Shown here: positions 4,548 to 61,934 of the stretch, piece after piece
Numbering within the stretch: the stretch's first letter is position 1
Layout: each line of letters starts with the position of its first letter
DNA from: Methylotenera sp.
Lineage (GTDB): Bacteria; Pseudomonadota; Gammaproteobacteria; Burkholderiales; Methylophilaceae
Length of the DNA: 64,000 nt
Reading direction: 5' to 3'
NCBI RefSeq assembly: GCF_030653755.1
Contig: NZ_JAURYU010000046.1
Span: 1-64,000, forward strand
Made by a program: the position numbers and the translations under genes
Notes under the pieces: model-generated
The model's input: only the letters and a program-made list of their open reading frames with translations
Database searches by the model: none
Told to the model about the DNA's origin: nothing

Positions 4548-5846
4548 ATGGCTTCAGTTTATATCGGAATGACAGTGGATGTGTTGCATCACGGGCATAT
4601 TAATATTATCGAGCAAGCGAGAAAATATGGTGATGTGATTGTTGGTCTGTTGTCTGACTCTGCAGTGGCTGATCATAAACGTTTGCCATATTTAACATAT
4701 GAACATCGCAAACAAATCGTTGAAAATATCAAAGGGGTAGCGCAAGTGGTACCCCAAAATGAGTGGGATTACGCACCTAATTTAAAAAAATATCGTCCAG
4801 AAGTCATGGTGCATGGTGACGATTGGCTAGAAGGCCCCCTTGTACCATATCGTGATAGAGCGTTAGCAGCATTGGCTGAGTATGGTGGACGCTTGGTTGA
4901 GATTCCCTATACCCGTGGTATTTCATCTAATGAGATGGTTACACAAATTCAAGCACTCGGGACAACACCAGACATACGCCGCCGTACACTTAAGCGTTTA
5001 TTAGCGGCTAAGCCAATTTCACGTTTTATTGAAGCGCACAATCCAATATCAGCTTTAATTGCAGAGCATACGATAGTCGAGCGCGACGGTAAAAACTATC
5101 AGTTTGATGGCTTTTGGTCTAGCTCACTTACAGATTCAACTGCACGAGGTAAGCCCGATATTGAGGCTTTGGAGATTAACAGCCGTTTATCTAATATTAA
5201 TGATATTTTTGATGTCACGACAAAACCATTAATCATGGATGCCGACACAGGTGGCAAGCTAGAGCACTTTGAGCTTAACGTACGTAGCATGGAGCGCTTG
5301 GGTATTTCTGCCACAATTATTGAAGATAAAGTTGGTTTAAAGAAGAACTCACTCTTTGGTAATGATGTTGCGCAAAGCCAAGACGACATTGAATCATTTT
5401 GCGATAAAATTCGTGCAGGTCGAGCAGCGCGCGTCAGTGATGATTTTATGGTGATTGCCCGTATTGAAAGCCTGATTTTAGATAAGGGTATGAAGGATGC
5501 CATTACTCGAGCGCAAGCTTATGCGGGTGCTGGGGTGGATGGTATTATGATACACAGCCGTAAAAAAACTTCTGATGAAGTATTTGAATTTGCCAAGATT
5601 TTTAAATCAGAGTTTCCAACACTGCCTTTAGTTTGTGTGCCCACAAGCTACAACACGGTCACAGAAGATGAGTTAGCTGAGCATGGCTTTAACTTAGTGA
5701 TATACGCGAATCATTTGTTACGTGCCGCTTACCCTGCTATGCAGCATGTTGCGCGTGAAATTTTGCGTAATAGCCGCTCTAGTGAGGTAGATCAGCATTT
5801 GATGAACATTAATGAAATACTGGAACTCATTCCAGGGACTAAATAA
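4548..5846 (+). CDS. aepX: Nucleotidyltransferase (TagD/RfaE-like) fused to phosphoenolpyruvate phosphomutase
   Basis: N-term YIGMTVDVLHHGHINII (HxGH) and TRGISSNEM; C-term PEP mutase motif EDKVGLKKNS (EDK-X5-NS). ORF track starts at GTG 4533; ATG 4548 preferred. Confidence 0.9.
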   Translation: MASVYIGMTVDVLHHGHINIIEQARKYGDVIVGLLSDSAVADHKRLPYLTYEHRKQIVENIKGVAQVVPQNEWDYAPNLKKYRPEVMVHGDDWLEGPLVPYRDRALAALAEYGGRLVEIPYTRGISSNEMVTQIQALGTTPDIRRRTLKRLLAAKPISRFIEAHNPISALIAEHTIVERDGKNYQFDGFWSSSLTDSTARGKPDIEALEINSRLSNINDIFDVTTKPLIMDADTGGKLEHFELNVRSMERLGISATIIEDKVGLKKNSLFGNDVAQSQDDIESFCDKIRAGRAARVSDDFMVIARIESLILDKGMKDAITRAQAYAGAGVDGIMIHSRKKTSDEVFEFAKIFKSEFPTLPLVCVPTSYNTVTEDELAEHGFNLVIYANHLLRAAYPAMQHVAREILRNSRSSEVDQHLMNINEILELIPGTK

Positions 5847-6986
5847 ATGATTGCACCTAGTGTATTTCACTCAGCACTGCAAGTCTGCGGTATTAATTTT
5901 GTAGCAGGGGTGCCAGATTCTTTACTCAAAGAAGTTTGTGCTTGTATTACTCAATGTTTTCCAGCTGAGCGCCATGTGATTGCGGCTAATGAAGGTGCTG
6001 CCATTGGTTTGGCGATTGGGCATTATTTAGCCTCAAATAGCCCTGCGTTGGTCTATATGCAAAACTCAGGACTAGGCAATGTGGTCAACCCGATTGCCTC
6101 TTTGGCTGACCCTCAAGTGTATGGTATTCCAATGTTGTTAATGGTGGGCTGGCGGGGTGAAATGCAAGCGGATGGTACACAAATCCATGACGAGCCACAG
6201 CATGTAAAACAAGGTCAGATGACGATTGCTCAACTAGAAGTTTTGGATATTCCTTATGTGCTTATCGATGCGCAAACCCCTGATATTGAAAAGGTGTTAA
6301 AAGAGCTGGTGAGTCTTGCATTGACCAAACAAGGTCCTGTTGCTTTGTTGGTGCGTAAGCAGACGTTTTCGTCCTTTAAACTTGAGGCTAAACCAGATGT
6401 GCCAGACCTTTTGTCACGTGAGCAAGTAATCCAGCTTTTAGTGCAGAACCTGCCAGAAAACACACCTATTGTGAGTACTACAGGTATGGCATCGCGCGAG
6501 TTATTTGAATATCGCAAAATCAATAACACTGGTTTTGACCATGATTTTTTAACGGTGGGTGGTATGGGGCATGCCTCGCAAATTGCAGTTGGCATTGCAA
6601 TGGAGCGTACAACAAGCAAAGTGTTATGTATTGATGGCGATGGTGCTGTGCTCATGCATATGGGTAGCTTGGCGGTGAGTGCTAGACAAAAAAACTTAAT
6701 TCACATCGTCATTAATAACGGTGCACATGATTCTGTAGGTGGTCAGCCAACGTTGGCGAAAGCGTTGGATTTGTCAAAAATTGCTAAAGACTGTGGTTAT
6801 GGTTTTGTTGCACAAGTAAGTACTGAAGAGGCTTTGCTGGCTCAATTAAAGTTTGCAATTAGTGCAAATACGAGCGCTTTTTTAGAAGTTAAATGTAAAT
6901 GTGGTGCGAGGGCTGATTTAGGTCGCCCTGATCGAACACCAGCCACCAATAAACAAGAGTTTATGAAGTTTCTGAAGAGTTTGTAA
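5847..6986 (+). CDS. aepY: Phosphonopyruvate decarboxylase (ThDP enzyme)
   Basis: ThDP decarboxylase architecture: AANEGAAIGLAIGHYLAS, YMQNSGLGNVVNPIASL, CIDGDGAVLMHMGSLA, NNGAHDSVGGQPT; directly abuts aepX. Confidence 0.92.
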   Translation: MIAPSVFHSALQVCGINFVAGVPDSLLKEVCACITQCFPAERHVIAANEGAAIGLAIGHYLASNSPALVYMQNSGLGNVVNPIASLADPQVYGIPMLLMVGWRGEMQADGTQIHDEPQHVKQGQMTIAQLEVLDIPYVLIDAQTPDIEKVLKELVSLALTKQGPVALLVRKQTFSSFKLEAKPDVPDLLSREQVIQLLVQNLPENTPIVSTTGMASRELFEYRKINNTGFDHDFLTVGGMGHASQIAVGIAMERTTSKVLCIDGDGAVLMHMGSLAVSARQKNLIHIVINNGAHDSVGGQPTLAKALDLSKIAKDCGYGFVAQVSTEEALLAQLKFAISANTSAFLEVKCKCGARADLGRPDRTPATNKQEFMKFLKSL

Positions 6987-6987
6987 A

Positions 6988-7980
6988 ATGAGTGATCAAT
7001 CTAAATCCATAGAGAGCTTAGTTGCACAACGTAATCAAGCTAAATTGATATTTACTGCGGGCCCAGCTAGCTTGTTGCCAGAAAACTTAACTGGCTTGCG
7101 CCCTTGTTTTGGTCGCGGTGATCGAGATTATGATCATGTGGAAGCTGAAGTCCTTAATACGCTCAAAGCAATGACAGGGCATCAGCATATTGTACGCATG
7201 CAGGGCGCTGCAAGTTTGGCGCTTGAAATTGCTGCGCTTAATTTTTTACATGGTCGTGTATTGGTGGTTGCTACAGGCTATTACTCAGATCGCTTGCAAT
7301 GGTTAGCCGAGTCCGCACAAAGAAGGTTGAGCGAAGTCAAATCATTGACTTATATAGATTGGCAGGCGCTAGATACTATTTCAGGCCAGTTTGATTGGGT
7401 AGTAGCGTGTTATATCGAGACGAGTTGTGGCTTAAAACTGCCGATTGAGACATTACAAATTTTAGCTAAACGTGTTAATGCCAAGCTCATGTTGGATGCT
7501 ACAGCATCAATAGGGCTAGAAGATGGGCACAATGTAGCTGATGTCATTGCGTATAGCTCCTGTAAAGGCTTATTTGGCTTAACTGGTGCATCCTTTATTG
7601 CGTTTAATCATCATCCTACGATTGAGGTGGATTCGTTTTATTTAAATTTAGCGAGCCATGCTGAAAAAAGAATGACAGGTCCTTATCACGCCATTGCTTC
7701 GCTATATGAAGTGCTTAAAAGACATGATGACTTTAAGTCTGCTGTAGTTGAAAACAAAAAAATATTTATGAAGAAAATGAGCACAATTGCGATAAAGCCA
7801 ACAACTCATCAGCCCATATTATGCACATGGGTAGATGGCGAGATTGCTTCATTAGACCCACGTGCTGTGCTTTACAAACCACGCGGTAATGCAGGTGGTA
7901 GTGTTGTGTGCCATTTGGGTGAAGTACATCTTGAGCGTCAAGCGCATGGTGAAATATTAAACGCTTTGCAATTGGTATAG
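6988..7980 (+). CDS. Class V aminotransferase, 2-aminoethylphosphonate transaminase-like
   Basis: ELKAM-like N-term, LMLDATASIG, PLP-lysine-like SSCKGLFGLTGASF; position in phosphonate operon. Confidence 0.75.
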   Translation: MSDQSKSIESLVAQRNQAKLIFTAGPASLLPENLTGLRPCFGRGDRDYDHVEAEVLNTLKAMTGHQHIVRMQGAASLALEIAALNFLHGRVLVVATGYYSDRLQWLAESAQRRLSEVKSLTYIDWQALDTISGQFDWVVACYIETSCGLKLPIETLQILAKRVNAKLMLDATASIGLEDGHNVADVIAYSSCKGLFGLTGASFIAFNHHPTIEVDSFYLNLASHAEKRMTGPYHAIASLYEVLKRHDDFKSAVVENKKIFMKKMSTIAIKPTTHQPILCTWVDGEIASLDPRAVLYKPRGNAGGSVVCHLGEVHLERQAHGEILNALQLV

Positions 7981-53965: not shown

Positions 53966-54331
53966 GGGGCTGACCAGGTTTCGACGTGGGTTGCAAAGCA
54001 GTGCAGGGCATACCGAGGACTAGTCACCTCGTAAATAAACTAGAAAAAGTATAGTCGCAAACGACGAAACTTACTCTCTAGCCGCTTAATCCCGGCTGGA
54101 CGCTGCACCATCTCTCCCGTGGGGTGGATTGGGGTAACCCATACGTAGTGTCATATACACGGGATACGTGTTGTGTTGGGTTACTTAGCACTTCATTAAC
54201 CTTAAGGTAGCTCGCGTGCAAACTGCTTGTCTGTTGGTGTGTTGCACGTTAAATTAAACAACAAGGCTAAGTATGTAGAACTGTCTGTGGAGGGCTTGCG
54301 GACGCGGGTTCGATTCCCGCCTGCTCCACCA
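53966..54331 (+). ncRNA. ssrA: tmRNA
   Basis: GGGGCTGACCAGGTTTCGACGTGGG 5' end, ORF GCAAACGACGAAACTTACTCTCTAGCCGCTTAA (ANDETYSLAA*) at 54057-54089, 3' GCGGGTTCGATTCCCGCCTGCTCCACCA; adjacent to smpB. Confidence 0.97.
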
Positions 54332-54410
54332 TTTTAGTGTTTCACCTAGTATCAAAAAGTATCAAAAGCCTAGTAAATTCAAACTTCTAGGCTTTTTTTA
54401 CGCCTATTGC
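54329..54410 (+). repeat. att direct repeat, ssrA-proximal (82 bp)
   Basis: CCATTTTAGTGTTTCACCTAGTATCAAAAAGTATCAAAAGCCTAGTAAATTCAAACTTCTAGGCTTTTTTTACGCCTATTGC; 80/82 identical to 58715-58796. Confidence 0.95.
54367..54399 (+). terminator. ssrA rho-independent terminator (inside att repeat)
   Basis: GCCTAG-loop-CTAGGC-TTTTTTT. Confidence 0.85.
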
Positions 54411-54517
54411 AATTGCATAGTGTATCTTTACATATCATAGTTTTGAGGGTACATTTTGAGGGTACGCGGAATTTTTAAAAAAACGTACCCGCAAAAATAA
54501 CTAACTGATTGTTAAAT

Positions 54518-55744
54518 ATGCCTAAACTAGCCGAACGCTTAACCGATATTAAAGTTAAAAATGCCAAGCCTAAAGTGAAGCCTTATAAATTGGCTGCTGG
54601 GCGTGGTTTGCATTTACTTGTTAAAACAGACGGTTCAAAACACTGGCAGTTTAGATTTAGGTTTGACGGTAAAGAAAACACTATATCAATCGGGCGTTAT
54701 CCCGAAGTGTCGTTAGCCAATGCTGAAAAGAAAGCCACAGACGCGCTTGAATTGTTAGCTAATGGTATTAACCCAAGTGAAAATAAAAAAGCCACTAAGG
54801 CTACTAAAACAGGTGCGCTTGCTAACAGCTTTGAAGTGGTGGCCCGTGAATGGGCAAATAGTTACTTCACCAATAAATCAGAATCACACAAAGAGCGCAC
54901 ATTCAGGCGGTTAGAAAGCTATTTATTCCCGTGGCTAGGTAGCAAGCCAATATCAGAAATTACCGCACCGCAAATTTTAGAGGTGGTGAAGCGTATTGAA
55001 AACCTAAATAAACTTGAAACCGCACATCGCACTTTGCAAGCCACTAGCCAAGTGTTTAGATATGCGGTGCAAACAGGCAGGGCGTTACGTGACCCGTGCG
55101 TGGATTTAAGAGGCGCGTTACCTGCTACCGTGGTTAAACACATGGCAGCGTTTACCGAACCTAAAGAGATAGCCGAGCTATTACGCGCAATAGATGGCTT
55201 TACAGGTTCTTTTACAGTGCAAACAGCACTTAGGTTATCCCCGTTAGTTTTCACACGCCCTAGCGAGCTTAGAACGGCTAAATGGGCAGATATTGATTTA
55301 GAAGCTAACGAGTGGCGTTATCGCGTAAGCAAAACCAATACTATGCACTTAGTACCATTATCAAAACAGGCGGCTAAATTGTTTGCAGATATGCACCCGC
55401 TAAGCGGACATGGTGAGTTTGTTTTTCAAGGTGGACATGACCCTAAAAAGCCTATGAGTGCAGCGGCTATCAATGCATCATTAAAGCGTATGGGGTATGA
55501 CACACAGCAAGATATAACAGCTCATGGGTTTAGGGCGATGGCGCGTACTATCCTGCATGAGCGTTTGAACATTGACCCTTACATTATCGAACACCAACTA
55601 GCGCACAAAGTACCTGATGCGCTAGGTAGAGCTTATAACCGCACTAAGTTTATCGAACAGCGCACCGCTATGATGCAAGCGTGGGCAGATTATTTAGACG
55701 AGCTTAAAGCGGGGGCAAAGGTGATACCGTTTAAGCAAGCATAA
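54518..55744 (+). CDS. P4-type tyrosine recombinase/integrase
   Basis: KLAERLTDIKVKNAKPKVKPYKLAAGRGLHLLVKTDGSKHWQFRFRFDGKENTISIGRYPEVSLANA; catalytic region ITAHGFRAMARTILHE; ATG 54518 preferred over TTG 54509. Confidence 0.98.
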   Translation: MPKLAERLTDIKVKNAKPKVKPYKLAAGRGLHLLVKTDGSKHWQFRFRFDGKENTISIGRYPEVSLANAEKKATDALELLANGINPSENKKATKATKTGALANSFEVVAREWANSYFTNKSESHKERTFRRLESYLFPWLGSKPISEITAPQILEVVKRIENLNKLETAHRTLQATSQVFRYAVQTGRALRDPCVDLRGALPATVVKHMAAFTEPKEIAELLRAIDGFTGSFTVQTALRLSPLVFTRPSELRTAKWADIDLEANEWRYRVSKTNTMHLVPLSKQAAKLFADMHPLSGHGEFVFQGGHDPKKPMSAAAINASLKRMGYDTQQDITAHGFRAMARTILHERLNIDPYIIEHQLAHKVPDALGRAYNRTKFIEQRTAMMQAWADYLDELKAGAKVIPFKQA

Positions 55745-55839
55745 CCAGTTTAGCCACACCTAGCCCGACGGGGCGAACACCAAGCAACCCTAGCTTAGTT
55801 GGTGTGGCTTCTTAATTTAAGGGCGCGAAAGGGGCGTTT

Positions 55840-56430
55840 ATGAGCTTAAATACTGAAAGCGTAAAGCAAACCGTTAATCAATTATTGAGCGGTATCGAGG
55901 CTAAGGTTAACAATGGCGTGAAAATTGTTGAGCTTCAAGAGGAACATACAGCCATATACAAAAATATTCTTACAGAGTCGCTTGCTAGTAACGATAAAGA
56001 CGAAATACTCAATTACTTGTCATGGCTATTGTTTGCTGGCGGCCTACAAAACTTCAACTTTGCTAAAGCTCATGATGCTTTAAGTAATATTATTCCTATT
56101 GTTAATAACCTTGAAGTTTTGGTAAAAGGGCAGCCAGTTTTAGTTGCAGAAATTCAAAAACTTCAGTCGATTATTGGAAAAACTAACGAAGGGCGTTCGA
56201 GGGGCGGAAAAAATAAAGACAAAGCTAAGCAAGACTCTATGCAAGAAATAGAGCGAACCTACCTATATAAACATAATAGCGGTTTTGAGTTTAAAGAAGG
56301 ACGATTAACTGCGTTTTATAAAGATATGGCAACAGGGCATAACCTTGATTTTAGTTCAGTCAAAAATAGAGTTGAAAAACTGCGTAAAAAGTTAGGACAC
56401 ACTGCAAGACCTAAGAGGCAATCGAGCTAG
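55840..56430 (+). CDS. Hypothetical island protein (196 aa)
   Basis: Open frame with plausible start; basic C-terminus SSVKNRVEKLRKKLGHTARPKRQSS; no recognised family. Confidence 0.6.
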   Translation: MSLNTESVKQTVNQLLSGIEAKVNNGVKIVELQEEHTAIYKNILTESLASNDKDEILNYLSWLLFAGGLQNFNFAKAHDALSNIIPIVNNLEVLVKGQPVLVAEIQKLQSIIGKTNEGRSRGGKNKDKAKQDSMQEIERTYLYKHNSGFEFKEGRLTAFYKDMATGHNLDFSSVKNRVEKLRKKLGHTARPKRQSS

Positions 56431-56534
56431 CTCAGTTGCAATCTAACAAGCTCAATCGTTTTTTATCAATTAAATCAAGCATATATTCCTTTCACCGACC
56501 CAGTATGACGCGGGTTTAAATGAGAGGAACTATC

Positions 56535-56777
56535 ATGCAACAATTAAAAAACGAACTAACGCAAAACATCCCACCCGCATTAATCAATTTTGATTCAATG
56601 CCAGATAGCGCATATATCCGCTTACCAGTTATTAAAGCCCTATATGGCGTATCAAGTGCCACGATATGGCGCAATGTTAAAAATGGCGCGATACCTAAAC
56701 CAAGCAAATTAAGCGAACGCTGCACCGCGTGGAATGTTGGACAAGTGCGCGCTGACCTTGCAGCAAAGGCGGTGTAA
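56535..56777 (+). CDS. AlpA-like phage/island regulator (excisionase-type HTH)
   Basis: YIRLPVIKALYGVSSATIWRNVKNGAIPKPSKLSERCTAWNVGQVRADLAAKA. Confidence 0.88.
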   Translation: MQQLKNELTQNIPPALINFDSMPDSAYIRLPVIKALYGVSSATIWRNVKNGAIPKPSKLSERCTAWNVGQVRADLAAKAV

Positions 56778-56779
56778 TC

Positions 56780-57112
56780 ATGGCGAACAATGAGAACACC
56801 CAAAATAAAGGGGTAGCCGTTGACGCGACCACCCCGAAAGCTAAAAACATCAAGCCAAAGTTTACCGATAACAGCTTACGCAATCAACGCTTAAAGCTGC
56901 TGGATTACTTACGCGAACATGGCAGCATTACGACCAGCCAAGCCCGTGAGTTATTGGATATTTACTACCCACCTGCTAGGGCATTTGAATTAAAAAAAGA
57001 AGGTTATTTAATAACAACCATATGGGATAGCTGGGTTAGTGAGTACGGCATTAAGCACCGTATAGGGCGTTATGTTTTAACTCAAAAACAGCCTATTGAA
57101 AGCGAGGCTTAA
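56780..57112 (+). CDS. Helix-turn-helix domain protein of integrative elements
   Basis: RNQRLKLLDYLREHGSITTSQARELLDIYYPPARAFELKKEGYLI. Confidence 0.75.
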   Translation: MANNENTQNKGVAVDATTPKAKNIKPKFTDNSLRNQRLKLLDYLREHGSITTSQARELLDIYYPPARAFELKKEGYLITTIWDSWVSEYGIKHRIGRYVLTQKQPIESEA

Positions 57113-57114
57113 CC

Positions 57115-57258
57115 ATGAATCACAATCACTGGTTAGAACGCTTGCAATCGCTTATAGTGCGATTTTCACACTTAGGCATAGATGCTGATATAGTCGCACT
57201 CAACTTAAGCGAGCGGTGGGGCTTATATTGCTATCTATCACGGTTAGCAGATAGTTAG
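57115..57258 (+). CDS. Small ORF, 47 aa, between HTH gene and relaxase (absent from supplied ORF track)
   Basis: MNHNHWLERLQSLIVRFSHLGIDADIVALNLSERWGLYCYLSRLADS*, packed between neighbours with 2-3 nt gaps. Confidence 0.5.
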   Translation: MNHNHWLERLQSLIVRFSHLGIDADIVALNLSERWGLYCYLSRLADS

Positions 57259-57261
57259 CAC

Positions 57262-58047
57262 ATGGCTGGCAGTCACTTAATCCGATTGGGTAAGGTAAAG
57301 GGTAAGAATGGAATTTTAGCCGCAATGCAACACAATAAACGCACTTTGCAAGCCGAACGTGGCGCGGGTGCAAACATTGATGCGGCTAAAACACATTGCA
57401 ATTACTCGCTTGCTAGTGTTGCTGACACACCCGAAGCGATAGCCACCCGCGCTAAAGTTTTGATGGTAGAGGCTGGCATAGACACGCCCCGCAAAAACGC
57501 GGTTATGGCGGTAGAGGTGATTTATAGCCTACCCATTGACCGACACAATCAAGACACGCGCCCGTTTTTTACGGACTGTCTAAACTGGACAAAACAAACC
57601 TTTGCGGGTGTGTTGTTATCTTTTGACGTACACTTGGACGAAAGCGCACCCCATGCCCATGCCGTGATATTGCCACTGGTAAACGGCAAAATGCAGGGTA
57701 GTGACATGGTGGGCTATAAAGGCAACATAACGCGGCTTATCAATCTATTTCATAAAGAAGTGGCAGGGCGTTATGGTTTGAGTAGAAGCGATAGTAAGCG
57801 ATTGTCTAACCTAGACAAGCAAGCCATTGAGCGGCAAGTTTTAATGCGGCTAAAGAGCGACCCTGTCATGCAATCATGTGCTTGGCCTTGCTTTCGTGAT
57901 GCTATTCATAAAGACCCGCTATCGTTTGCACAATCACTAGGCATTGCAGCACCAGCAAAACGACAAACTAAAACCAAGTCATTCATTGAAATAATGACAT
58001 CCAAAGGCAAGGGTAAGCCTAAAAACCCTATAGGGAATTTTGCCTAA
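57262..58047 (+). CDS. MobV/Pre-like relaxase (short form)
   Basis: HNKR motif in AAMQHNKRTLQ; HxDExxPHxH motif in DVHLDESAPHAHAVILPLVNGKM. Confidence 0.88.
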   Translation: MAGSHLIRLGKVKGKNGILAAMQHNKRTLQAERGAGANIDAAKTHCNYSLASVADTPEAIATRAKVLMVEAGIDTPRKNAVMAVEVIYSLPIDRHNQDTRPFFTDCLNWTKQTFAGVLLSFDVHLDESAPHAHAVILPLVNGKMQGSDMVGYKGNITRLINLFHKEVAGRYGLSRSDSKRLSNLDKQAIERQVLMRLKSDPVMQSCAWPCFRDAIHKDPLSFAQSLGIAAPAKRQTKTKSFIEIMTSKGKGKPKNPIGNFA

Positions 58048-58154
58048 AAACAATTAAACCCTATCCTGTGTATAGGGTTTGGTTTTAATCACACTTTCGG
58101 AACTATAAAAAATAAATAAATCTATAAACAGGTTAGTTATTTAATCAATAGCCT

Positions 58155-58454
58155 ATGAAGCTAAACGATACGTTTAAAATGAACAGAGCGCAGATTAGGC
58201 AACACAATAAAAAAGTGATAAAGCGGGTGCGAGAGCTTATGAAATTAAAACTAAGCACCCCGTATTACTATCGCATGAGAATGGGCTATAAAGAACTTGC
58301 CCATAGATTAAATGCAATTGAGTTATTATCAAGCCGTGGCAATCAGTGGACTATGCGAAGCCTTTACAGAATGATGCAACGGCAAAATGTAGCCATTCAT
58401 TCAATCACGGCAGCATTAAATAAAAAGGGCATTAAAAGACATATTAGAACGTGA
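58155..58454 (+). CDS. Small basic island protein (99 aa) with recombinase-like HTH segment
   Basis: YKELAHRLNAIELLSSRGNQWTMRSLYRMMQRQN resembles the serine-recombinase accessory HTH pattern. Confidence 0.5.
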   Translation: MKLNDTFKMNRAQIRQHNKKVIKRVRELMKLKLSTPYYYRMRMGYKELAHRLNAIELLSSRGNQWTMRSLYRMMQRQNVAIHSITAALNKKGIKRHIRT

Positions 58455-58714
58455 TTAAAACGAGCATTTCAGACAGCCGCAAAGGTGCATTTTTGACCAC
58501 GTTAAAACGTGCATAAACTGACCCGATAAAAAGTTGTATTAACCTACATAACAATGCGTATATTTTAAAGTTGCTATAAACGCGCATCTCAAACTACGGT
58601 AAAGAGCGGTAAAAGATTTATTTTATTGGGTACGTTTGCGGGTATAGCGTTTTTTTAACTTTCATAGAATGGCTATTATATTGGCTTGTAGCGATTTGTT
58701 GGATTGACGCCTGC

Positions 58715-58796
58715 CCATTTTAGTGTTTCACCTAGTATCAAAAAGTATCAAAAGCCTAGTAAATTCAAAATTCTAGGCTTTTTTTACGTCTATTGC
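58715..58796 (+). repeat. att direct repeat, distal (82 bp)
   Basis: 80/82 identical to 54329-54410. Confidence 0.95.
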
Positions 58797-58874: not shown

Positions 58875-58914
58875 ATAATGCAATATTTCAACAATAGTTG
58901 TAATATTGCATTAT
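58875..58914. promoter_or_regulatory. ArsR operator candidate (40-bp near-perfect palindrome)
   Basis: ATAATGCAATATT-T-CAAC-AATA-GTTG-T-AATATTGCATTAT, overlaps arsR ATG. Confidence 0.8.
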
Positions 58915-59284
58915 GGATAAAAATACAGCCACTTCAATTTTCGAGTCTTTGTCTTCTGGCGTGCGTTTAGATGTATTTAGGCTCTTGGTTAAGCAAGGGT
59001 TAAATGGGATGGTTGCAGGCGAAATAGCAACGACTTTAAATATTCCGGCTAACAATTTGTCTTTCCATCTAAAGGCCATGATTTATGCCAATATGGTGTC
59101 AGTTGAGCAGGAGGGTCGTTACCAACGCTATCGCGCTAACATTTCATTGATGTTAGACGTGATTGCTTATCTCACCGAAGAGTGTTGTGCAGGTCATCCA
59201 GAGAAATGTGTAGAAATGCGAACAGGCTCTGTTTGTTTGTCAAGTGTGCTACCTTCAATAACAACCGATAAATCTAAGGTGTAA
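58913..59284 (+). CDS. arsR: ArsR/SmtB-family transcriptional regulator
   Basis: ALSSGVRLDVFRLLVKQGLNGMVAGEIATTLNIPANNLSFHLKAM pattern; C-term ECCAGHPEKC. Confidence 0.93.
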   Translation: MDKNTATSIFESLSSGVRLDVFRLLVKQGLNGMVAGEIATTLNIPANNLSFHLKAMIYANMVSVEQEGRYQRYRANISLMLDVIAYLTEECCAGHPEKCVEMRTGSVCLSSVLPSITTDKSKV

Positions 59285-59287
59285 ACA

Positions 59288-59767
59288 ATGAATGTTCTAT
59301 TTTTATGTACAGGTAACTCTTGTCGCTCTATATTGGGTGAGGCTACTTTTAATCATTTGGCGCCGAGTGGTTGGCATGCAATGAGTGCCGGGAGTAAGCC
59401 TACTGGTTATGTGCATCCACGTTCATTGGCTTTGTTAGCGTGTGAGGGTATTTCAACGGATGGCTATCATAGTAAGTCTTGGGAAAATCTGCCAACAATG
59501 CCAGATATTGTGATTACCGTATGCGGTAGTGCAGCGGGTGAAACATGTCCAGCTTATCTTGGCCCTGTGGTAAGGACGCATTGGGGGGTGGAGGATCCAG
59601 CACATGTTACTGGGACGGATGAGGAAATTGATGCGGCTTTTGTTAAGGCGTATAGCATTTTGCGTGCGCGTATCGAGGCGTTTTTGGCGCTACCATTAAC
59701 GACACTAAAAAACGATAAGACAGCACTAAAAGCTGAAATGGATAAGATCGCAACGACTATTATTTAA
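59288..59767 (+). CDS. arsC: Arsenate reductase, LMW-PTPase type
   Basis: NVLFLCTGNSCRSILGEATFNHL (CX5R P-loop). Confidence 0.93.
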   Translation: MNVLFLCTGNSCRSILGEATFNHLAPSGWHAMSAGSKPTGYVHPRSLALLACEGISTDGYHSKSWENLPTMPDIVITVCGSAAGETCPAYLGPVVRTHWGVEDPAHVTGTDEEIDAAFVKAYSILRARIEAFLALPLTTLKNDKTALKAEMDKIATTII

Positions 59768-59776
59768 GGAAATGTG

Positions 59777-60139
59777 ATGGCTAAATCAATACAGGTGTTT
59801 GATCCTGCAATGTGCTGTAGTAGTGGCGTATGTGGGACGGAAGTGGATCAGAGTTTGGTTAGTTTTTCTGCCGATGTAGATTGGGCGAAAACTAATGGCG
59901 CACAAATTGAACGTTTTAATCTTGCACAACAGCCGATGGATTTTGCTAATAATAAAGTGGTGAGAGATTTTCTTGAGCGCTCTGGTCAAGATGCGTTGCC
60001 ACTTATTTTAGTTGATGGTGAGTTTGCCTTGGCTGGCCGTTACCCAAGCCGTACCGAACTGGCACGTTGGGCTGGGTTGGCATTGGCAATTGAAATTGAA
60101 CCTGTTGCCAGTTGCTGTAGTGGTGGTAAGTGTTGTTAG
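59777..60139 (+). CDS. arsD: Arsenite metallochaperone ArsD
   Basis: VFDPAMCCSSGVCGTEVDQSLVSFSADVDW; C-term CCSGGKCC. Confidence 0.95.
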   Translation: MAKSIQVFDPAMCCSSGVCGTEVDQSLVSFSADVDWAKTNGAQIERFNLAQQPMDFANNKVVRDFLERSGQDALPLILVDGEFALAGRYPSRTELARWAGLALAIEIEPVASCCSGGKCC

Positions 60140-60179
60140 TTTAATGTTAGCTTATTTGATGCTCTGCTAAGGATAATCC

Positions 60180-61934
60180 ATGCTATTTCTTGATCAACCA
60201 CCACGTTTTCTTTTTTTTACTGGTAAGGGTGGCGTGGGAAAAACTTCAATTGCCTGCGCAACGGCAATCCAATTGGCTGAAAACGCTAAGCGCGTTTTAC
60301 TGGTAAGTACGGATCCTGCATCAAACGTTGGTCAGGTTTTTGGCATTAGCATAGGTAATCATATTACAGCCGTGCCAGCCGTACCTAATTTGGCGGCGCT
60401 GGAAATTGATCCGCAAGCTGCCGCACAGGTATATCGTGATCGTATTGTTGGGCCCGTGCGTGGCATTTTACCTGACGATGTTGTTAGAGGGATTGAAGAA
60501 CAGCTCTCTGGCGCATGTACCACAGAAATTGCAGCTTTTGATGAGTTCACGGCACTTTTAATCGACTCACCTGTGACGGATGATTATGATCACATCGTAT
60601 TCGATACCGCACCAACTGGGCATACGATTCGCTTACTACAGTTGCCTGGTGCATGGAGTGGTTTTTTAGAAGAGGGCAAGGGTGATGCGTCATGCCTGGG
60701 GCCTTTATCTGGCCTAGAAAAACAACGCGAACAATACAAGGCTGCAGTTGACGCACTTGCAGATGGCAAACGTACTAGATTGATTCTCGTTGCGCGAGCG
60801 CAGCAGTCCACCTTACGAGAAGTTGCACGCACCCATAAAGAACTGGCAGGTATTGGTTTAAAACAACAATACTTGGTTATTAATGGCATTTTGCCAAAAA
60901 TCGAGGCTGAAACTGATAGGTTGGCAGCTGCAATTTATCAGCGCGAACAGTCTAGTCTCAACGCGATTCCAGAGGTGTTAAAACAACTCCCGAGAGATTT
61001 AGTGGCACTCAAAGCGTTTGACTTGGTTGGGCTGGATGCCTTGCGACAGCTTTTAATAGATAGCCCTTATCAAGTGCATGATGTTAGTGATTCGCTTGTT
61101 GAAGTGAGTAAGCAAAGCCTGTCTCAGCTTGTTGATGGGATTGCAAAAGAAGGTCATGGCTTAGTGATGACGATGGGCAAAGGTGGTGTTGGTAAAACCA
61201 CGATAGCCGCAGCCGTAGCTGTTGAGTTGGCTAGTCGCGGTTTACCTGTACACCTCACTACATCAGACCCAGCGGCTCATTTGTCAGACACGTTGAACGG
61301 TAACCTTGATAATTTAACTGTGAGCCGAATTAATCCACATGAAGAAACTGAACGCTACCGCCAAAATGTACTGGATAGTAAAGGCGCGCAATTGGATGCG
61401 CATGGTCGTGCTTTGCTAGAAGAGGATTTGCGCTCTCCGTGTACGGAGGAAATTGCAGTATTTCAAGCATTCTCAAGGATTATCCGTGAAGCGGGTAAAA
61501 AGTTTGTTGTCATGGATACAGCGCCGACAGGACACACGTTGTTATTACTTGATGCAACAGGTGCATATCACCGTGAAGTGGCTCGTCAAATGGATAAAGC
61601 TCATTTGCACTACACGACACCAATGATGCAGTTACAAGATCCAAAGCAAACTAAAATACTGATCGTCACACTTGCAGAAAAGACGCCCGTATTGGAAGCG
61701 GCTAACTTGCAAGAGGATCTGCGTCGCGCTGGTATTGAGCCTTGGGCATGGGTAATTAATAATAGCATTGCTGCAACAACCACTACCTCTGCCTTGTTGC
61801 ATCAAAGAGCGCTTAATGAGTTGGTGGAAATTAATACAGTAGCCGAGCAATATGCAAAACGCTATGCCTTGGTACCGATGCTGAAGGAAGAGCCTGTTGG
61901 TGTTGAGAGACTTCATCAACTCGCCAGCGGTTGA
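60180..61934 (+). CDS. arsA: Arsenite efflux ATPase ArsA
   Basis: Two P-loops: FTGKGGVGKTSIACATA and MGKGGVGKTTIAAAVA; DTAPTGHT in both halves. Confidence 0.97.
   Translation: MLFLDQPPRFLFFTGKGGVGKTSIACATAIQLAENAKRVLLVSTDPASNVGQVFGISIGNHITAVPAVPNLAALEIDPQAAAQVYRDRIVGPVRGILPDDVVRGIEEQLSGACTTEIAAFDEFTALLIDSPVTDDYDHIVFDTAPTGHTIRLLQLPGAWSGFLEEGKGDASCLGPLSGLEKQREQYKAAVDALADGKRTRLILVARAQQSTLREVARTHKELAGIGLKQQYLVINGILPKIEAETDRLAAAIYQREQSSLNAIPEVLKQLPRDLVALKAFDLVGLDALRQLLIDSPYQVHDVSDSLVEVSKQSLSQLVDGIAKEGHGLVMTMGKGGVGKTTIAAAVAVELASRGLPVHLTTSDPAAHLSDTLNGNLDNLTVSRINPHEETERYRQNVLDSKGAQLDAHGRALLEEDLRSPCTEEIAVFQAFSRIIREAGKKFVVMDTAPTGHTLLLLDATGAYHREVARQMDKAHLHYTTPMMQLQDPKQTKILIVTLAEKTPVLEAANLQEDLRRAGIEPWAWVINNSIAATTTTSALLHQRALNELVEINTVAEQYAKRYALVPMLKEEPVGVERLHQLASG

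Follow-up and report, generated by a model that had tools for sequence, protein, structure and literature searches.

The window analysed here is the whole 64,000-nucleotide stretch of Methylotenera sp. contig NZ_JAURYU010000046.1, which belongs to host genome G000 (2.49 Mb, contig 6). Within it, an element of about 4.4 kb lies between two att repeats at the 3' end of ssrA, the transfer-messenger RNA (tmRNA) gene, and carries, in order, an integrase gene (int), the int-alpA RNA, orf2, genes for an AlpA-family protein and a helix-turn-helix (HTH) protein of the HTH_39 type, a 47-aa open reading frame (ORF), a relaxase gene (mob), and orf7 (Table 1). This element is probably a minimal, helper-dependent integrative and mobilizable element (IME) of the MOBV type, a reading that we hold with moderate confidence. 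The initial annotation, made from the sequence without database searches, had listed an integrase, an AlpA-like regulator, an HTH protein, a MobV-like relaxase, and proteins of no assigned function, and this content was borne out by Pfam and NCBIfam scans. Its further statement that replication and conjugation genes are lacking holds in scans of all seven ORFs, and neither coupling protein nor mating-pore genes were found in the element with Pfam, NCBIfam, or PHROGs.

Table 1. Coordinates in the window of the ssrA element and its target gene.
Feature	Position	Strand	Basis
ssrA (tmRNA), target gene	53966..54331	+	ARAGORN; Rfam RF00023, 216.7 bits; 99.7% identity to the empty-site ssrA of G036
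attL, 82-bp repeat: ssrA CCA and terminator	54329..54410	+	Repeat search; 10 elements aligned with empty sites
Arm-type sites, left end: GAGGGTAC at 54445 and 54458, inverted GTACCCGC at 54485-54492 near int start	54445..54492	+	Sequence; putative Int binding
Tyrosine integrase, P4 type, 407 aa	54521..55744	+	PF13356, PF22022, PF00589; 79-93% identical integrases at ssrA in relatives
int-alpA RNA, leader of orf2-alpA-mob operon	55753..55823	+	Rfam RF02996, 55.1 bits (gathering 35.8); same position in relatives
orf2, 196 aa	55840..56430	+	No Pfam match; slot holds unrelated proteins in relatives
AlpA-family protein, probable excisionase/recombination directionality factor	56535..56777	+	PF05930, 24.1 bits (cut-off 21)
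Winged HTH protein (HTH_39), conserved in operon	56780..57112	+	PF14090, E 4.3e-18; relatives
orf5, 47 aa, conserved directly 5' of mob	57115..57258	+	51-65% identical homologues before mob in relatives
MOBV-type relaxase (mob), 261 aa	57262..58047	+	PF01076; NF041497 below cut-off; MobM 4lvi by sequence; fold 4lvm; motifs HNKR, NYSL, HLDESAPHAH
Candidate oriT: palindrome CCCTATAGGG at 58026-58035; hairpin AAACCCTAT-CCTGTGT-ATAGGGTTT at 58056-58080; predicted nick 58070 (G)/58071 (T)	58026..58080	+	
orf7, 99 aa, resolvase-like HTH	58155..58454	+	Weak HTH matches; 3' of oriT here and in G511 (55% identical homologue)
Arm-type sites, right end: GGGTACGTTTGCGGGTA	58628..58644	+	Right-end alignment with relatives
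attR: 82-bp repeat 58715-58796 and decayed ssrA 3'-end homology 58698-58714	58698..58796	+	Repeat search, alignment

Insertion at ssrA

The element is a site-specific insertion at ssrA. A repeat search returned a single pair of 82-nt direct repeats, identical at 80 of 82 positions (98%) and spaced 4,386 bp apart. ARAGORN and Rfam place the end of ssrA at the same base, the repeat start coincides with the encoded CCA, and the complete terminator hairpin (AAAAGCCTAG...CTAGGCTTTTTTT) is present in both copies, in agreement with the initial annotation, which had described 82-bp repeats beginning in the last bases of ssrA and including its terminator. Upstream of the right copy, weaker ssrA homology continues for 17 nt (GTTGGATTGACGCCTGC versus GTTCGATTCCCGCCTGCTCCA in ssrA, with a 4-nt gap).

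Genome G036 has an empty site, in which smpB, ssrA, and a single repeat are followed by the same ars genes that lie 3' of the element in the window. When the element was excised in silico, leaving ssrA, one repeat, and the right flank, the window matched G036 at 93.7% identity over 1,419 bp with three gap positions. Since the host flanks are contiguous at this empty site, the repeats are the ends of an insertion rather than a host duplication. A single repeat also follows ssrA in G011, G024, and G005, while two copies bound other elements at the same site in G021, G013, G027, G016, G031, G038, G050, UBA5127, and the IMG/VR contig L246. These nine further two-copy elements, together with the single copy and contiguous flanks of G036, exclude chance as an explanation. 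The initial annotation had proposed looking for an empty attB and for the same element at other ssrA loci, and would have been undermined by repeats flanking ssrA without the element or by relatives lacking empty sites; instead, G036 has one repeat and an empty site, and the nine other occupants differ from the window element while having the same integrase. The flanking genes themselves (58913-61934; directly after ssrA in G036) encode an ArsR-type regulator and arsenate reductase-like, ArsD-like, and ArsA-like proteins.

In G043, the closest genome by ssrA, one repeat is followed by ~270 bp of remnant right-arm sequence and then the ars genes, with no second att copy (L237 ~6000-6400, G043:C28). 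This lone repeat with its arm remnant is the scar of an older ssrA element.

The 7 nt just before the attR repeat (CGCCTGC in the window) equal the T-stem allele of the host ssrA in 10 of 10 elements, across three alleles (permutation p 2.4e-4, relatedness ignored), and the bases on both sides of this stretch are element-specific. Most simply, attP and attB would have to be identical at these positions, although this leaves the neighboring deletion unexplained. As for the crossover point, the allele match favors the final 7 nt on the T-stem side, whereas the adjacent element-specific deletion of 4 nt or 1 nt argues for a position further right.

Integrase and arm-type sites

The integrase has the arm-binding, central, and catalytic domains of a P4-type tyrosine integrase, and its gene adjoins the 3' end of the target. 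In most of 80 named loci, its homologues lie ~150-190 bp downstream of a tRNA or tmRNA gene, and the named relatives come from Methylotenera and other Methylophilaceae.

Direct arm-type repeats occur at both ends of each element compared (window; L083, L085-L087, L089, L120, L153, L246), matching within an element but differing between elements: GGGTAC in G000, G021, G013, G027, and UBA5127, GGGGTAAC in G031 and L246, GACGGTAT in G016 and G038, and GGGGGTATA in G050. The unusual arms of G031 and L246 accompany a divergent (swapped) Int N-terminal domain, while the catalytic parts are 92% identical to that of the window. These patterns fit a role of the repeats as real Int binding sites. Because they match at both ends and change with the Int N-terminal domain, they fix both ends of the element. 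Iteron-like repeats spotted by eye at ~58460-58600 were dropped, as the right-end alignment did not show them to be conserved.

A 9.8-kb Methylovorus glucosotrophus 'plasmid', pMsip02 (NC_012972.1; L329), which encodes a 66% identical integrase, was considered as an excised circle and rejected, as it has filamentous-phage-type genes and no ssrA att sequence. With a zot-type gene, DUF2523, and a small coat protein, it looks like the circular form of a filamentous phage that integrates.

Relaxase

The mob product scored 60.7 bits against PF01076 (Mob_Pre; cut-off 25.5) and contains two of the motifs defined for MOBV enzymes (PMC5090054): motif I (HxxR) reads HNKR and motif III (HxDExxPHxH) reads HLDESAPHAH. 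Motif II, with the consensus NY(D/E)L, reads NYSL. In an alignment of nine homologues, His24, Asp126, Glu127, His131, and His133 are invariant, as are N47 and Y48 of motif II. Furthermore, the best PDB matches of an AlphaFold2 model (mean pLDDT 73) were relaxase-oriT complexes of MobM (Foldseek E 5.5e-9, TMt 0.73). Homologues of mob occur in 23 of 187 Methylophilaceae genomes, in 15 of 399 genomes sampled from the order, and in 4 of 369 sampled from the class.

A candidate oriT 3' of mob

Behind mob lies a site, absent from the account given in the initial annotation, that we regard as a candidate origin of transfer (oriT) cognate to the relaxase on the strength of its MOBV-like geometry, its co-variation, and its linkage to mob. 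In nearly every element the mob stop codon is followed by AAACNCTAT-CCTGTGT-ATAGNGTTT, and in 2.5 Mb of loci all perfect hairpins but one stand behind mob. When 18 loci were aligned (17 with mob, one orphan), a nearly invariant loop, CCTGTGT, was seen on a co-varying stem: 91.4% of stem cells are paired, 7 cells have double-sided changes, and GC, CG, and AU occur at the same pair. Covariation was 0.171 versus 0.059 in shuffles, a value that none of 500 shuffles reached and that beats every slid register, although related rows inflate such scores.

The palindrome upstream uses the same arms as the hairpin, and the arm variants CCC, CGC, and CAC are common to both. Pairing between the right half of this palindrome and the hairpin's left arm can give a second hairpin, mutually exclusive with the first. 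Of the 19 loci scored, 18 have 6 nt between the end of this second hairpin and the predicted nick, and G540 has 8 nt; the stem is at least 6 bp in most. Known MOBV1 oriTs similarly form three mutually exclusive hairpins, among them IR1, which lies 8 nt upstream of the nick, and another that encloses the nick (PMC5863519); cutting takes place at GTGTG/TT or GTGcG/TT (PMC5863519, PMC5090054). By analogy with the MOBV1 site GTGTG/TT (PMC5090054), nicking is predicted between G58070 and T58071.

The exact 15-nt core of the site occurs in 12 of 187 Methylophilaceae genomes, namely 11 of the 23 with mob (each time adjoining it) and 1 of the 164 without (G013); the reversed core, as a control, was found in 0 genomes. 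The IMG/VR collection was scanned with a 23-nt pattern, since a 15-nt core gave 37 matches, near or below chance; only two contigs in all of IMG/VR had the pattern, both with mob. The core was not found in distant mob homologues of other families (L239-L243). The ssrA element of G013 has a full oriT-like double hairpin (L085 7115-7200, G013:C1:1290560) but no mob; this orphan site may be a relic, or it may be used in trans.

A recurrent operon behind the int-alpA RNA

Rfam revealed the int-alpA RNA, which the initial annotation did not mention. The block formed by this RNA, an orf2-like gene, alpA, the HTH gene, the 47-aa ORF, and mob recurs in relatives: it accompanies integrases only ~30% identical in G039, G019, and G004, and is inverted relative to int in G016 and G027. 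Since the RNA (also at L086 4917-4984, L087 5047-5125, and L083 3004-3080) keeps its place before the operon when the block is inverted or moved away, it is an operon leader that is not tied to int; it may conceivably act like the immunity RNA of P4. By analogy with work on the AlpA of PICMI satellites (PMC10803314), the AlpA-family protein probably serves as an excisionase or directionality factor.

Mobilization or satellite life

Like a canonical IME, the element is flanked by att repeats at a specific site for which an empty counterpart is known, and it encodes its own integrase and a canonical relaxase. In a MOBV-type life cycle, Int would integrate the circular form into the 3' end of ssrA, regenerating gene and terminator; this chemistry is the putative part of a step whose product, the insertion, is seen in the window. 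AlpA, which would be co-expressed with the HTH protein, orf5, and mob behind the int-alpA RNA leader, could then switch Int to excision, and the relaxase may nick the circle so released between G58070 and T58071, within the oriT that follows mob. A conjugative element in the same cell would provide the coupling protein and the type IV secretion system through which the relaxase would guide the single strand, after which the transferred element could integrate at the recipient's ssrA. The initial annotation had proposed an integrative mobilizable element: the integrative part stands on the empty site, while the mobilizable part is strengthened by the relaxase motifs and fold and by the oriT-like site, with excision, nicking, and transfer inferred.

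Several observations weigh against this account. The relaxase reached 83 bits against the NCBIfam MobV model NF041497, short of the cut-off of 100, and at 261 aa it lacks the long C-terminal part of MobM and MobSag (418 aa, PMC5090054). Because the motif of the candidate oriT was discovered in mob-carrying elements, only its absence from 163 of the 164 genomes without mob is an independent test. No VirB4 was found in this genome, which is normal for a helper-dependent element but supplies no helper. Nor did VirB4 co-occur with mob among 52 genomes of the genus (1 of 11 with mob versus 8 of 41 without; Fisher p 0.66). Finally, some relatives carry terminase small subunits (TerS) along with mob.

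Alternatively, the element could be a phage satellite of the PICI/PICMI kind, excised by Int and AlpA and packaged in helper-phage particles, with the MOBV enzyme occupying the replication slot and starting rolling-circle replication at the hairpin instead of serving conjugation. The order int, variable gene, alpA, small gene(s), mob parallels int, iolg, alpA, up1, prim of PICMIs (PMC10803314). The sister elements of G021, G013, and UBA5127, at ssrA with nearly the same integrase, keep orf2, alpA, the HTH gene, and the 47-aa ORF, and their mob slot holds weakly replication-like proteins (phrog_7882, E 2e-4; phrog_678, E 0.003; both weak). TerS accompanies mob in G540 (L276; PF03592, E 1.2e-25), the IMG/VR contig L244 (10001-12874; phrog_2538, E 4.7e-11), and G016 (L087; PF03592, E 3.9e-9), and the failure to find VirB4 is likewise consistent with this alternative. 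In G521 (L278), a MobC and a second relaxase, of MobA/VirD2 type, lie near the mob homologue, an arrangement that would be sensible if mob served replication.

However, the window element contains no terminase, capsid, or primase gene: it has neither the primase (DUF3987/DUF5906) that joins int and alpA in the PICMI model (PMC10803314) nor the TerS that would be the packaging gene of a PICI. TerS appears in only three of the mob-carrying elements read, and the site behind mob has MOBV oriT geometry, including the mutually exclusive second hairpin. Element DNA had no match in 50,697 phage records, and neither the QQVNNG nor the ~90-aa proteins encoded 3' of mob or rep were found in phage records. 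Searched against IMG/VR, the single relaxase sequence found no match and a profile found two contigs, both of which are chromosomal and lie next to prophages; the prophage of L246 ends at an ssrA fragment, with the element behind it in tandem. In the host genome, the terminase large subunit family phrog_2, the only one searched for, gave weak matches only, so that no helper prophage of this family is indicated. A satellite life is a serious alternative, though less likely than mobilization.

Two of these loci have further features. In G521, MobC and the MobA/VirD2-type relaxase are near an integrase at tRNA-Lys as well as the MOBV homologue, and two relaxases may share one element. The tandem prophage of L246 contains an apparent diversity-generating retroelement (5346-7412), with a reverse transcriptase beside two near-repeats ending in GARGVC.

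A combination of both routes is also conceivable, if rather unlikely. One HUH enzyme and its hairpin site could serve both conjugative mobilization and rolling-circle replication, and the TerS-bearing members (G540, L244, G016) would travel in phage particles, so that the MOBV oriT and satellite modules would swap in one slot of a shared int-alpA backbone.

It is improbable that the element is a decayed or immobile remnant, kept merely as an insertion: related copies are indeed broken (stops in mob in G004 and G012; the scar in G043) and several att pairs have diverged, but here all ORFs are intact, the att repeats agree at 80 of 82 positions, arm sites stand at both ends, pairing of the oriT arms is perfect, and G036, the closest relative with an empty site, is without the element. 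Least probable is that the hairpin is only a transcription terminator and that mob has no cognate site there, since, although it follows the last gene of the operon and gives a terminator-like match (58080-58056, on the minus strand), no terminator was called on the mob strand, and a terminator requires neither the near-invariant loop and co-varying stem nor a palindrome with the same arm variants.

Relation to known systems

A minimal MOBV-type IME would resemble Tn5520 of Bacteroides fragilis, the smallest mobilizable transposon of its time, in having one tyrosine integrase and one MobV relaxase, but Tn5520 belongs to another phylum, uses another target rather than ssrA, and has neither AlpA nor the int-alpA RNA; it is reportedly about equal to the window element in size. 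As Tn5520 comprises a single integrase and mob gene and MTnSag1 measures 1.7 kb (PMC5704250, a review), the window element is small but not a record. IMESag-rpsI of Streptococcus agalactiae, a MOBV1 IME, is likewise chromosomal, with a MOBV relaxase and an oriT of overlapping inverted repeats nicked between G and T in GTGcG/TT (PMC5090054), whereas it spans 9.1-9.5 kb, encodes a 418-aa relaxase, has its oriT upstream of mob, and integrates at rpsI in Firmicutes. The MobM-oriT pair of pMV158 shares the catalytic motifs, the fold, and mutually exclusive hairpins, of which one encloses the nick and another stops a few nt short of it (PMC5863519), but MobM is ~25% identical, its oriT lies 5' of mobM, the core is GTGTG/TT versus CCTGTG/TA in the window, and pMV158 is a non-integrative plasmid.

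PICMI and PICI satellites have in common with the window element int, a variable gene, AlpA, small size, and helper dependence, and TerS with some of its relatives; they differ in that the window element has a relaxase and oriT instead of a primase, and no packaging gene. From P4-type integrase islands at the 3' ends of tRNA and tmRNA genes (Islander, PMC4383910), which share the integrase family, its position 150-190 bp after the gene, and the restored 3' end, there is no essential difference, and the window element makes ordinary use of its site.

Elements at ssrA, P4-type integrases, AlpA, the int-alpA RNA, and MOBV IMEs are all known kinds. As far as our tools reach, the novelty lies in their occurring together in Betaproteobacteria, in the sequence of the candidate oriT and its place 3' of mob, and in the exchange of modules with satellite-like genes. 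According to a review of IMEs from 2017, no example of a canonical IME with a relaxase only was on record for Proteobacteria (PMC5704250), and no later counterexample was found in the literature outside subscription sources. The window element would be such an IME, of only 4.4 kb. With an oriT predicted to the nucleotide on the 3' side of mob, the mobility of such small islands can be tested directly, and a short DNA signature is available for finding them. Furthermore, relaxase and replication-like genes replace each other in one slot and some relatives carry terminase genes, which is relevant to how conjugative passengers and phage satellites give rise to one another.

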